From Sphingomicrobium marinum (GTDB lineage: Bacteria > Pseudomonadota > Alphaproteobacteria > Sphingomonadales > Sphingomonadaceae), in NCBI RefSeq assembly GCF_026157105.1, contig NZ_JANPVQ010000001.1:1481501-1545500 (forward strand): 64,000 bases of DNA, in the 5' to 3' direction. Under the pieces are notes generated by a model. It was not told the origin of the DNA and did not search any database. It saw only the letters and a program-made list of their open reading frames with translations. Made by a program: the position numbers and the translations under genes. This document shows positions 16,305 through 20,867 of the stretch, piece by piece; the first letter of the stretch is position 1; each line of letters opens with the position of its first letter.

Positions 16305-17932
16305 GCGACGATCATGACCTCGACGATGGGTTTCTTGCCGGTCCATGCATTGGCACAGCGACGCACCGCGAGACGGACCTTCTCCCGTGCCTTCCCCTCG
16401 TCCATGCCGGACTCCCACGCCTTGGTAGCACTGTCGGCGCAGTCGGCGAGAAAATCGGCATGATCCTCCTCCACCGGCACACCGAGCGCCCGCACTTCCA
16501 CGTCACCCGCCAGCTGATCATCGCCATCGATCGGCAGCGCGACCGCGATCACGCCTTCCCAGCTCATCTTGCGGCGCTGGTTGATCGTCTGCCCGTCGGC
16601 GGGAAGAATGACGTCACCGTCGAGGATCAGGCGGCCCGTGCGAACGACATCGATCTTCTCGGGATCACCAGGGGCGAGCCGGATGACGTCGCCGTTGGTC
16701 TGGAACACGGTGTGCGGGATGCGATGCTCTTTTCCCAGCCATGCCTGTTCGCGCATGTGCCGGTTTTCGCCGTGCACCGGGATCAGGATGTCGGGGCGGA
16801 TCCAGTCGTACATCTGCTTGAGCTCGGGTCGTCCCGGGTGGCCGGACACGTGCACATGCACCTGCTTTTCGGTCACCGTATGCACGCCGAGATCAGATAG
16901 CGCATTCATGATACGCCCGATGGCAAGCTCGTTGCCGGGGATCATCTTTGACGAGAAGATAACCGTATCGTCTTCGCTGAGTTTCAATGTGTGCTGGCCA
17001 TTGGCGATGCGGTTGAGCGCCGCGCGCGGCTCTCCCTGCCCGCCCGTCGCGATGATCATGACGTTCCGCCGCGGCAGTTGCATCGCATCCTCGAAGCGCA
17101 CGGTCTGCGGAAAATCCTGCAGGTAGCCGGTCGACTGCGCGACGCGGATGATGCGATCGAGGCTGCGGCCCGCCACGACCAGTTCGCGCCCGGCTTCCTG
17201 CGCAACGCGGCCAAGCGTCTCGAGCCGCGCCGCGTTGGAGGCAAACGTGGTGACAAGAACGCGGCCCTCGGCCCTCTGCACCTCCTGCAGCAGGCCTTCG
17301 TAGACGCTGCTTTCACTGCCCGAGGGCTTGTTGTCGAACACGTTGGTCGAATCGCACACCAGCGCACGAACGCCGCTATCGCCGATCATCTGCATCGCTT
17401 CATCGCCCGTCGGGGTGCCGAGCACGGGCTTTTCGTCGATTTTCCAATCGCCGGTGTGGAACACCTTGCCATGCGGCGTGTCGATCAGCACACCATTGCC
17501 TTCCGGAATGGAATGCGACAGCGCGACATAGCGTATGTCGAACGGCCCGAGCGTGATGCCGCCGTCGCGTTCGATCTGCTTGACCTTGACCTGACCGGTC
17601 AGGCCCTCCTGGTCGAGCTTTTCGCGGATCAGCCCCGCAGTGAACGGTGTCGCGTAGAGCGGCACCTTCAGCTCGTCGGCAAGATAGGGAATGGCGCCGA
17701 TATGGTCTTCATGACCGTGCGTGAGGACGATGCCGATGAGCTCGTCCTGTCGCTCCTCGATAAATTCGAGATCGGGCAGGATCAGGTCGACGCCGGGATA
17801 ATAGGGATCGGCAAAGGTCAGACCCAGGTCGACCATCAGCCATTTGCCGCGGCAACCGTAGAGATTGACGTTCATGCCGATCTCGCCCGAGCCGCCGAGC
17901 GCGCAAAAAAGAAGTTCGTCGCCTGGTGTCAT
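16295..17932 (-). CDS. rnj: Ribonuclease J
   Basis: Metallo-beta-lactamase/beta-CASP nuclease with 5'-3' exo- and endonuclease activity in mRNA decay and rRNA maturation. The 545-residue product has the metal-binding motif HGHEDH at residues 72-77, further metal His in SHSIPEGNG and a C-terminal beta-[14 protein letters not shown] and HGENRH. ATGA overlap with coaX upstream and a 10-base overlap with the DUF1467 gene downstream. Alphaproteobacteria often keep RNase J next to coaX and birA after nuoN, as here. Confidence 0.96.
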
Positions 17933-18699
17933 GAAGTTGCCTGCTTATGGAGCATCATCAGCCCCTTGATGGTCAGATCAAAATCGATTGCGTCGAACAT
18001 GCCTTCGGGAAACAGTGCCGACAGTCCTCCGGTTCCGATCACGGTTACCGGCCGCCCAATTTCCTTTTTCGTGCGATCCAGCAATCCCTCGATCATCGCG
18101 ACATAACCCCAATAGACGCCGATCAGCATCTGGCTGTGCGTCGTGGTGCCAATGACGCTGTCATCGTCGGGTTTTTCGATTGCGATCTTGGGAAGCTGCG
18201 CCGTCTTGCCGGTCAGCGCATCGAGCGACAGGTTGATACCGGGCGCGATCACCCCGCCTTTGTAGGCGCCGGTATAGTCGGCCACGTCGAAGGTAGTCGC
18301 CGTACCGAAGTCGATGACGACAATGTCGCCTTCATGCTCGGCATGGGCAGCGATGATGTTGAGCCCGCGATCCGCACCAAGCGTATCGGGTTCGGGCACG
18401 TCGAGGGTCATCGGCCAGGCGGCGGCACCATGCCCCGCTACCAGCGGTTCGACCTTGAAATAGCGCCGCGCCAGCAGCGACAGGTTGTGCAGCGCACGCG
18501 GGACGACGGTGCCGATGATGACGGCGTCGACCTGCTTGAACTTGACCTTTTCAAGGCTGAGCAGTTGCTTGAGCCACACCGCATATTCGTCCGCTGTGCG
18601 TCTGGGATCGGTGGCGATCCGCCAGCGCGCCTTGATCTCGTCACCATCGCACAGGGCGAAGACAATGTTGGTGTTTCCGGCATCGATCGCGAGCAGCAT
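17929..18699 (-). CDS. coaX: Type III pantothenate kinase
   Basis: Phosphorylates pantothenate, the first step of coenzyme A synthesis. The 256-residue ASKHA-fold protein shows the family motifs DAGNTN at residues 6-11, GADRGLN near 112 and DFGTATTFD near 131. This type needs a monovalent cation and is not inhibited by CoA (family knowledge). Nine bases after birA and overlapping rnj by 4 bases (ATGA), so all three are probably made from one transcript. Confidence 0.96.
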
Positions 18700-18708
18700 G
18701 CGCCCCTC

Positions 18709-19419
18709 CTACCCGTCCGCGTCGGCGGAATCGAGCGCTACGTCGCCGGCTCGAATAATCCGGACCTCGCCGCCGTCGAGTTCGAGCCGGAGCGCGCCAT
18801 CTTCTTCAAGGCCGACGAAGCGTCCCGACAGCGATGCGCCATCGCCATCGTGGACACGGATCTGGGTGCCGACAGGGTGCGCTTTTTGCATCCATGCCAT
18901 GGCGATCGAGGCCGGATCGGAACTGCGCCATGCCGCCAGCAAGCGCGCGAAGTTCGCCGCCAGGATTGGCGCAAAGGCTTGCGGTGCCATCGCTGCATCG
19001 AGCGACGATGTCTTGCGCCCCTCTATCTGCGGCGCCGCCGCGAGGTTCACGCCAAAACCCGCCACCACACGATCACCCGAGCGCTCGAGCAGAATGCCGG
19101 CCAGCTTGGCGCCATCGAGCATCAGGTCGTTGGGCCATTTAAGCTGGAAGTCGCGTCCCGGGGCGATGGTCTCGGCGGCCTCGACAAGGGCCAGCGCCGC
19201 GATCAGCGCGAGGCTTGCCGACGTCGGATCATTGGACTGGAGTTTGATCAGCGTGGAACCGAAGAAATTGCCGTCGATTGTCGTCCATTCACGCCCCTGA
19301 CGGCCGCGCCCATGATTCTGGTAGCGCGCGACGAGCCAGTCGCCCTCTACCGCGTGCGCATCGGCCATCAGGTCGGCATTGGTTGACCCGGTGACGTCTA
19401 CAAGGCGGATTTTACTCAG
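18709..19419 (-). CDS. birA: Biotin--[acetyl-CoA-carboxylase] ligase, apparent CTG start
   Basis: Attaches biotin to the carrier protein of acetyl-CoA carboxylase. It is monofunctional with no N-terminal HTH. Motifs seen: VTGSTNADL, GRGRQGREW (biotinyl-AMP loop), KWPNDLML and GFGVNL. The first ATG, at 19368, would cut off the conserved VTGSTN strand. Upstream of it the frame runs back to a stop inside nuoN with no ATG, GTG or TTG. The best candidate is CTG at 19417-19419, forming CTGA with the nuoN stop; this gives 236 residues beginning LSKIRLVDVTGSTN. The weak GAGTGGG lies upstream. ATC at 19410 is a less likely alternative. Confidence 0.88.
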   Translation of the reverse strand: MSKIRLVDVTGSTNADLMADAHAVEGDWLVARYQNHGRGRQGREWTTIDGNFFGSTLIKLQSNDPTSASLALIAALALVEAAETIAPGRDFQLKWPNDLMLDGAKLAGILLERSGDRVVAGFGVNLAAAPQIEGRKTSSLDAAMAPQAFAPILAANFARLLAAWRSSDPASIAMAWMQKAHPVGTQIRVHDGDGASLSGRFVGLEEDGALRLELDGGEVRIIRAGDVALDSADADG

Positions 19420-20867
19420 AAGAGCCCACTCGCAGCATTGTTGGACAGTTCACCCAACGGCCCGATCAGCAGGTAGCCGAGTGGCGAGACGACGAGCGCG
19501 AACAGGGCAATGAAACCGCCTTCGAGCGCGCCGCAGACATAATGCAGGTCTTCTTCGTTATCGTCGAAATACATCAGCTTGATGATCTTGAGATAGTAAA
19601 AGGCGCCGACCACGGTGCCGAGGATGCCCAGCACCGCCACGAACAGCAGCCCCGCGTCGACCGCGGCGTTGAACACCAGCAGCTTCGGCCAAAAGCCGAA
19701 CAGCGGCGGGATCCCGGCAAGGCTAAACATGAAGACCGCGAGCGCTGCAGCCATGCCGGGCCGCGTCTTCGACAGACCCTTCAACCTGTCCATGGCCTCG
19801 ATCGGCTCGTCATTTGCATCGCGCAGGTTGAGGACCACGAGAAAGGCGCCCAGCGTCATCACCGTATAAACGGCCATGTAGAACAACACCGCGCTCACGC
19901 CTATCTGCGTGCCCGCTGCAAGCCCGATGAGGACAAAGCCGATATTGTTGATCGAGGAGTAGGCCAGCAGGCGCTTGATGTTCGACTGTCCATAGGCTGC
20001 GACCGCCCCGAGGAAGATCGACGCCAAGGCTGCAAAGACCACGATCTGCTGCCATGCCGCAGTCGCCGGACCCAGCGCCTCAATCGCGAAACGCGTCGCC
20101 ATCAGCACCGCGGCCACCTTGGGCGCGCTGGCGAAGAAGGTCGTCACCGGGGTGGGCGCGCCTTCATAGACATCGGGCGTCCACATGTGGAATGGCACCG
20201 CGCTCACCTTGAAGGCGAGGCCCGCGAAGGTGAAGACGAGTCCGAAGAGCAGGCCGATGCCGAGTTCTTCCTGCGCCGCGAAGGCCGCGTTGATGCCATC
20301 GTAGCTGACCGATCCGGTAAAGCCGTAGAGCAGCGAAATACCATAAAGCAGGATGCCGCTCGCAAGTGCGCCCAGCACGAAATATTTGAGCCCTGCTTCG
20401 GCCGAGCGCGCATCGGTGCGGCGGTAGGAAGCGAGGATGTAGGCGGCGAGGCTGTTGAGTTCGAGCCCGACATACATGGTGATGAGGTTGGTCGCCGAGA
20501 CCATCACGCTCATGCCGACCGCGGCCAGCATGACGAGGATGGGATATTCGGGCCCGTGAAGCTCATCCTTCCCGAACCAGCGGTCCGAGGCAATGATCGC
20601 CACGGCAGCCGCGATGAAGATGATGACCTTGCCGAAGCCCGCGAAATTGTCCGCCGCCATCAGCCCGCCGAACAGCGCACCACCCGTCGTGGGTTCGGGC
20701 GTCAGCAGGACGACGCCGGCTGCCGCCAGCAGCAGTGCCACCGTGCCCCAGGTCGTGATCTTGGTCGCCTTGCGCCCCATCGTCGAGGCGGTGAGCATCA
20801 GGATGGGCTCGCCGATCAGCAGCAGCAGCTCGGGCAGGATCGCGGCGAAGTTGTAGTCGTATGTCAT
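19416..20867 (-). CDS. nuoN: NADH-quinone oxidoreductase subunit N
   Basis: Antiporter-like proton-pumping membrane subunit of complex I. The 483-residue product has about 14 hydrophobic helices and the Mrp-type core, with KVSAVPFHMWTPDVYEGAP and a conserved Lys in SNIKRLLAYSSINN. It overlaps nuoM by 4 bases (ATGA) and its stop is fused to the likely CTG start of birA. Confidence 0.97.
   Translation of the reverse strand: MTYDYNFAAILPELLLLIGEPILMLTASTMGRKATKITTWGTVALLLAAAGVVLLTPEPTTGGALFGGLMAADNFAGFGKVIIFIAAAVAIIASDRWFGKDELHGPEYPILVMLAAVGMSVMVSATNLITMYVGLELNSLAAYILASYRRTDARSAEAGLKYFVLGALASGILLYGISLLYGFTGSVSYDGINAAFAAQEELGIGLLFGLVFTFAGLAFKVSAVPFHMWTPDVYEGAPTPVTTFFASAPKVAAVLMATRFAIEALGPATAAWQQIVVFAALASIFLGAVAAYGQSNIKRLLAYSSINNIGFVLIGLAAGTQIGVSAVLFYMAVYTVMTLGAFLVVLNLRDANDEPIEAMDRLKGLSKTRPGMAAALAVFMFSLAGIPPLFGFWPKLLVFNAAVDAGLLFVAVLGILGTVVGAFYYLKIIKLMYFDDNEEDLHYVCGALEGGFIALFALVVSPLGYLLIGPLGELSNNAASGLF

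Follow-up and report, generated by a model that had tools for sequence, protein, structure and literature searches.

Introduction

The Escherichia coli genes infC and pcnB, both of which begin with AUU, are near-cognate-start genes whose dependence on IF3 is known, and neither of them is known to be in a stop–start overlap. Gene pairs in which the stop and start codons overlap by 4 nt and are coupled by termination–reinitiation are documented (Huber et al. 2019, PMC6728339; review PMC12548453), and NTGA is the commonest spacing according to the review. A term search finds no CTGA, GTGA or TTGA in the main text of PMC6728339, and no CUG or UUG in that of PMC12548453. Switches to CUG are counted in PMC5622118 for 2 of 61,358 ancestral AUG starts, 1 of 5,080 GUG starts and 1 of 2,468 UUG starts, and structural work has addressed how recognition by the initiator tRNA discriminates against CUG (PMC11497404).

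Here, we analyze the junction between nuoN and birA in a 64,000-nt stretch of DNA (the window), and compare it with junctions from the same genus, family and order. Like infC and pcnB, birA is a housekeeping gene that appears forced to start at a codon other than ATG, GTG or TTG, and its predicted start lies in a stop–start overlap. The locus resembles the coupled NTGA pairs described in PMC6728339 and PMC12548453 in its 4-nt overlap and in a Shine–Dalgarno-like patch inside the upstream gene, whereas the putative birA start is CTG, not ATG. The CUG starts counted in PMC5622118 are single events, whereas birA has retained CTG in 54 of the 66 genomes surveyed in the genus. The protein itself is like other TIGR00121 BirA proteins without a repressor domain, having a catalytic and a C-terminal domain and being the only match in its genome, and differs from them in its unusual start. 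Judged by titles and the openings of abstracts, none of the open-licence papers found treats a CTG start of birA. The locus presents a predicted near-cognate start within an overlap, conserved for one housekeeping gene in most of a genus and belonging to a family in which ATG is scarce at this gene. An obligate CTG start through most of a genus would show CTG to be a stable working start in bacteria, beyond a rare slip, and gene callers that accept only ATG, GTG and TTG would truncate such proteins, here into the biotin-binding motif.

Results

The nuoN–birA junction in the window

The minus strand of the window carries nuoM, nuoN, birA and coaX, in this order. The names nuoM, nuoN and coaX follow the first-pass annotation and are putative; the gene after birA (17929–18699), which starts with ATG 9 nt after birA and served as a start-codon control, is presumably coaX (type III pantothenate kinase), from its N-terminal sequence. 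The upstream gene nuoN (19416–20867) ends with CTC TTC TGA, and its stop codon (19416–19418) forms a 4-nt CTGA overlap (19419–19416), on the same strand, with the putative birA start codon CTG (19417–19419). The birA gene (18709–19419) would encode 236 residues if this CTG is the start. Overlaps of the ATGA type are also found at nuoM/nuoN (20864–20867) and between coaX and the next gene (17929–17932); the starts in these 4-nt overlaps of the neighbours of birA are ATG.

Codon positions are counted back from the conserved GSTN motif, which places the CTG at −10. From 19452, the birA frame reads TGA ACT GTC CAA CAA TGC TGC GAG TGG GCT CTT CTG AGT AAA ATC CGC CTT GTA GAC GTC ACC GGG TCA ACC AAT GCC GAC CTG ATG, with no ATG, GTG or TTG between the in-frame TGA inside nuoN (19450–19452), which closes the frame 11 codons before the CTG, and the first ATG (19366–19368). 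The first-pass annotation had stated that birA lacks an ATG, GTG or TTG start, that the VTGSTN strand lies upstream of the first ATG, that the CTG has two bases in common with the nuoN TGA, and that a start at the ATG would truncate the protein by 17 residues. All four statements hold in the codons given above: VTGSTN falls in the start-free gap, and the CTG is exactly 17 codons ahead of the ATG, a start at which would remove these residues together with the motif. A sequencing error at the junction, also raised there, is very unlikely, because a second genome (L002), whose BirA is 92% identical, is the same as the window over the 46 junction bases AGTGGGCTCTTCTGAG...GGGTC. With 3 of 64 codons being ordinary starts, we estimate a chance of about 40% for a start-free run of 20 codons; a single such run is not rare, and the weight of the argument therefore comes from the comparison across genomes.

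The product is a predicted biotin ligase without a repressor domain. In a profile search, TIGR00121 scores 119.7 bits, above its curated cut-off of 83.1, and model positions 1–234 of 235 match residues 9–235 of the frame as read, so that the family match already begins upstream of the first ATG. The Pfam models BPL_LplA_LipB and BPL_C both score above their cut-offs. The N-terminal helix-turn-helix of bifunctional BirA is not found by Pfam, which matches the ligase and C-terminal domains only, and the NCBIfam models of bifunctional BirA match from position 78 or later, far below their cut-offs. In the three alignments displayed against solved BirA chains, the aligned part starts at residue 10 of the read frame, with GSTN further downstream at residues 17–20. 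birA is known to be essential in bacteria where it has been studied. A search of the source genome finds one birA match, which rules out a second, normal birA elsewhere.

Conservation of the junction within the genus

The genus survey comprises all 66 birA junctions found among 71 genomes of the window genus, the other five genomes giving no birA match. L002 repeats the junction of L007 and is not counted, a partial match from Bifidobacterium (L006) was dropped, and junctions from Sphingopyxis (L003 and L004) and from a metagenome-assembled genome (MAG) labelled Caulobacterales (L005) were read outside the counts. Four loci (L025, L086, L097 and L110) were positioned by hand from the version of the motif that each carries.

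The codon at −10 is CTG in 54 genomes, TTG in seven, ATG in two, and ATC, ATT and CTA in one each; the genome with CTA (L025) has an ATG adjoining it at −9. The nuoN stop stands at the same offset as in the window in 55 of the 66 genomes, forming CTGA in 52 and TTGA in three. The first-pass annotation had proposed conservation of CTGA among sphingomonads as the check on its claim, and these counts bear it out. In L063, L067 and L069, the junction is shifted by 9 or 12 nt and an in-frame CTGA is kept three or four codons further upstream, which may serve as the start instead of −10. Four genomes are scored with an ATG; in one of them (L023) it lies at −20, inside nuoN, and CTGA is retained.

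ATG, GTG and TTG are all absent within 20 codons upstream of GSTN in 54 of the 66 genomes, and in 25 of these the next ordinary start lies past the start of the GRGR loop. Thirty-four genomes, the window's (L001) and 33 others, have no ordinary start at all from GSTN back to the in-frame stop upstream of it; the next one again lies past the start of this biotin loop in 14 of these genomes, so that initiation there would give a ligase without its biotin-binding motifs. Outside the genus, a CTGA junction without an ordinary start is found in both Sphingopyxis loci and in five loci of other genera (L083, L088, L094, L102 and L154). The Caulobacterales-labelled MAG has a TTGA nuoN–birA overlap, as do several Sphingomonadaceae. 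In the draft genome of L071, a second partial birA match (G067:C78:1426-1680) stands beside the ATG-started birA on one 3.6-kb contig, either a duplication or a misassembly.

Scarcity of ATG at birA in the family

For the family, one genome was taken from each other genus of Sphingomonadaceae; 47 of 48 matched birA and 45 junctions were read, leaving out G077 and G095 (weak or partial matches). The order sample holds 38 junctions from six neighbouring families, a subset of the matching ones, with family f3 left out. An ATG within 25 codons upstream of GSTN is found in 11/45 family junctions vs 35/38 order junctions (p 2e-10). The corresponding counts are 12/45 and 36/38 within 40 codons, and 9/45 and 24/38 within 20 codons, a limit that is unfair to the other families, whose birA starts lie further out. 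Within 20 codons, the 45 family junctions divide into nine with ATG, 21 with TTG alone (one of them, L098, with a doubtful TTG at −4), five with GTG alone, three with both, and seven with none; the last are the five CTGA loci of other genera named above plus L089 and L095, in which an in-frame CTGA is absent. The control gene coaX was read by a motif search that takes ATG when given a choice and that succeeded in 41 of the 66 loci of the genus and in 16 of 42 in the family (51 of 108 being unreadable); among the loci read, it starts with ATG in 40 of 41 and in 15 of 16, respectively. Ancestral starts in the alphaproteobacterial survey of PMC5622118 number 11,440 AUG, 789 GUG and 323 UUG. The rarity of ATG at birA thus seems to be characteristic of Sphingomonadaceae.

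The overlap alone does not explain this scarcity, because 14 of the 22 family junctions with TTG as the nearest candidate (among 42 loci) do not overlap nuoN. The distance to nuoN does vary with the start: ATG is present in four of the only five family loci that are separated from nuoN by more than 100 nt and in four of the 36 closer ones (p 0.003), or in 5/39 with three later loci included (p about 0.004, by hand); L100, which has no nuoN match, is excluded here. Such a trend would be expected if a gene supplied with ribosomes from nuoN had no need of a good start. Two observations speak against a simple rule: the six neighbouring families mostly have ATG despite nuoN ending close by, and some family loci with nuoN close also have ATG. 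That ATG is rare for birA throughout the family, and common only where nuoN is more than 100 nt away, goes beyond the first-pass annotation, which was right at the junction itself; the finding is both stronger and wider than stated there.

Constraint imposed by NuoN and the Shine–Dalgarno-like patch

A NuoN ending in Phe-TGA (TTC TGA) gives CTG automatically, so these letters are conserved in part because of NuoN. Moreover, whatever its first base, an NTG overlap always supplies a codon of the start list. The last nuoN codon in the 55 overlap genomes is TTC in 48, CTC in three, TTT in three and CGC in one. TTT at this position would yield TTG, usually a stronger start than CTG. There is no sign that TTT is favoured over TTC at this position (3/51 vs a background of 41/595), and hence none of selection acting on the letter C itself. 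Three kinds of comparative evidence are independent of NuoN: the constraint on birA residues (see below), the choice of codons that favour a Shine–Dalgarno-like patch, and the junctions at which the overlap has been lost.

When the fourth-last NuoN codon encodes glycine, it is GGG or GGA in 32 of 34 cases among the 55 overlap genomes. Pooled over NuoN codons −3 to −5, glycine is encoded by GGG or GGA in 34/36 cases vs 218/1017 (21%) further upstream, a difference (Fisher p 5e-20) that is strong but not exact, as the genomes of one genus are related and Fisher tests overstate their independence. The glycine codon has changed at least 13 times on the tree. This choice of GGG and GGA places a purine-rich, Shine–Dalgarno-like patch at a distance of 5 to 8 nt upstream of the CTG; in the window the patch is GAGTGGG (19425–19431, minus strand), 5 nt upstream. 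The patch pairs with the anti-Shine–Dalgarno sequence at −4.0 kcal/mol in the window genome and at a mean of −4.22 kcal/mol in the 55 overlap genomes, compared with −1.70 at control positions in nuoN; ahead of the first ATG that follows birA, the value is −4.55 (n = 34).

The nuoN stop is not at −29 in 11 genus genomes, of which ten nevertheless hold a codon of the start list at −10 (TTG in four, CTG in two, ATG in two, ATC and ATT in one each) and the eleventh has its ATG at −9. Where the overlap is lost, the codon at −10 is ATC in L009, CTG in L012, TTG in L059, L061, L062 and L068, and ATG in L071, with L025 having ATG at −9. L009 and L012 have lost the overlap and still have no ordinary start close by, which indicates that overlap with nuoN is not strictly needed. 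In L009, nuoN shares the frame of birA and ends with TAG. Two ATC codons are all that could serve as a start before GSTN in this genome, and AGGA lies upstream; its birA start is probably the ATC at −10.

These results bear on the best-surviving alternative, in which the CTG is used but is a frozen by-product of the NuoN Phe-TGA ending, served by independent Shine–Dalgarno initiation, with no meaningful coupling or role in dosage. The background frequency of TTT at the last nuoN codon, the resemblance of the pairing energies before birA and before the following ATG, and the CTG kept by L012 in the absence of an overlap all agree with it. The shortage of ATG in the family, however, holds where there is no overlap too (the 14 of 22 TTG-nearest junctions), and ATG becomes commoner with distance from nuoN (4/5 vs 5/39). 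We regard this alternative as unlikely, though one to be taken seriously.

Translation of the codons before GSTN and alternative starts

On the birA tree, codon −8 has undergone 32 codon changes and six amino-acid changes, codon −7 18 and four, and codon −6 23 and four, and codons −8 to −3 are under amino-acid constraint. Residue −8 is Arg or Lys in 65 of the 66 genus genomes. Because the codon changes far exceed the amino-acid changes, the birA frame is, judged by its evolution, translated from at least −8.

This evolution weighs on the codon immediately following −8. ATC is among the start codons that NCBI table 11 allows, and BirA could begin at the near-cognate ATC 19410–19408 (codon −7), giving M-RLVDVTGSTN; the codon is ATC, ATT or ATA in 56 of the 66 genomes, and it adjoins −8, where many other genera start. 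Codon −7 is not a general start, however, since it is CTC or CTT in four of the 66 and since the preceding codon −8 is itself constrained and evidently translated; a start at this ATC is very unlikely. Slightly less probable still is initiation at ATG 19368, which is the earliest ordinary start codon of the frame and the one that an annotation restricted to ATG, GTG and TTG would pick, with the 17 upstream codons not belonging to BirA, i.e., a protein without LVDVTGSTNADLMADAHAVEGDWLVAR. It would lose the VTGSTN strand, whereas the alignments with solved BirA chains begin upstream of GSTN; it leaves the amino-acid constraint on codons −8 to −3 upstream of the protein; and a downstream ordinary start is not available generally, lying past the start of the GRGR loop in the 25 genomes mentioned above. 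Least probable of all is that birA has no start of its own and is joined to NuoN by a −1 frameshift stimulated by the purine patch, as Shine–Dalgarno-like patches are able to do (dnaX, prfB): birA stands in the −1 frame relative to nuoN at all 55 of the overlaps, but no conserved slippery heptamer is seen, the second-last nuoN codon varies (ATC, CTC, CTG, TTG, CTT and others), and the genomes that have lost the overlap have nuoN in other frames (offsets −43, −45, −52, −70 and −115).

Proposed mechanism of initiation

Considering the alignments and codon choices together, birA very probably starts at CTG 19419–19417, and the route to it is probably reinitiation after nuoN. The full reading, in which a monofunctional BirA starts at this CTG by reinitiation after nuoN, helped by the purine-rich patch, has our considerable confidence. 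Ribosomes finishing nuoN would stop at its TGA and begin again at the CTG, whose TG lies within that stop codon, and the Shine–Dalgarno-like patch in the last nuoN codons would help the restart. The initiator tRNA would read the CTG as Met, giving M-SKIRLVDVTGSTN.... Coupling by termination–reinitiation is likely, and the CTG also has a Shine–Dalgarno-like patch of its own. A low output of BirA might be a tolerated or even a wanted result.

More speculatively, Sphingomonadaceae may hold birA on deliberately poor starts (TTG, CTG, even ATC or ATT) tied to the end of nuoN. Reinitiation following the synthesis of complex I, together with proofreading by IF3, would then set the dosage of BirA, acting as a translational rheostat common to the whole family, which has settled on CTG in the window genus. 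We consider this idea possible and somewhat doubtful. The scarcity of ATG in the family and its trend with distance offer a natural series of junctions in which reinitiation might relax the choice of start codon.

The gene for IF3 itself, infC, is found once in the source genome (G000:C1 near 398776; L116, about 1400-1480), where AAAGGAG is followed, after 8 nt, by an in-frame ATA and the first ATG comes five codons after this ATA; infC of this genome may itself begin at the ATA, an in-frame TTG upstream being the alternative.
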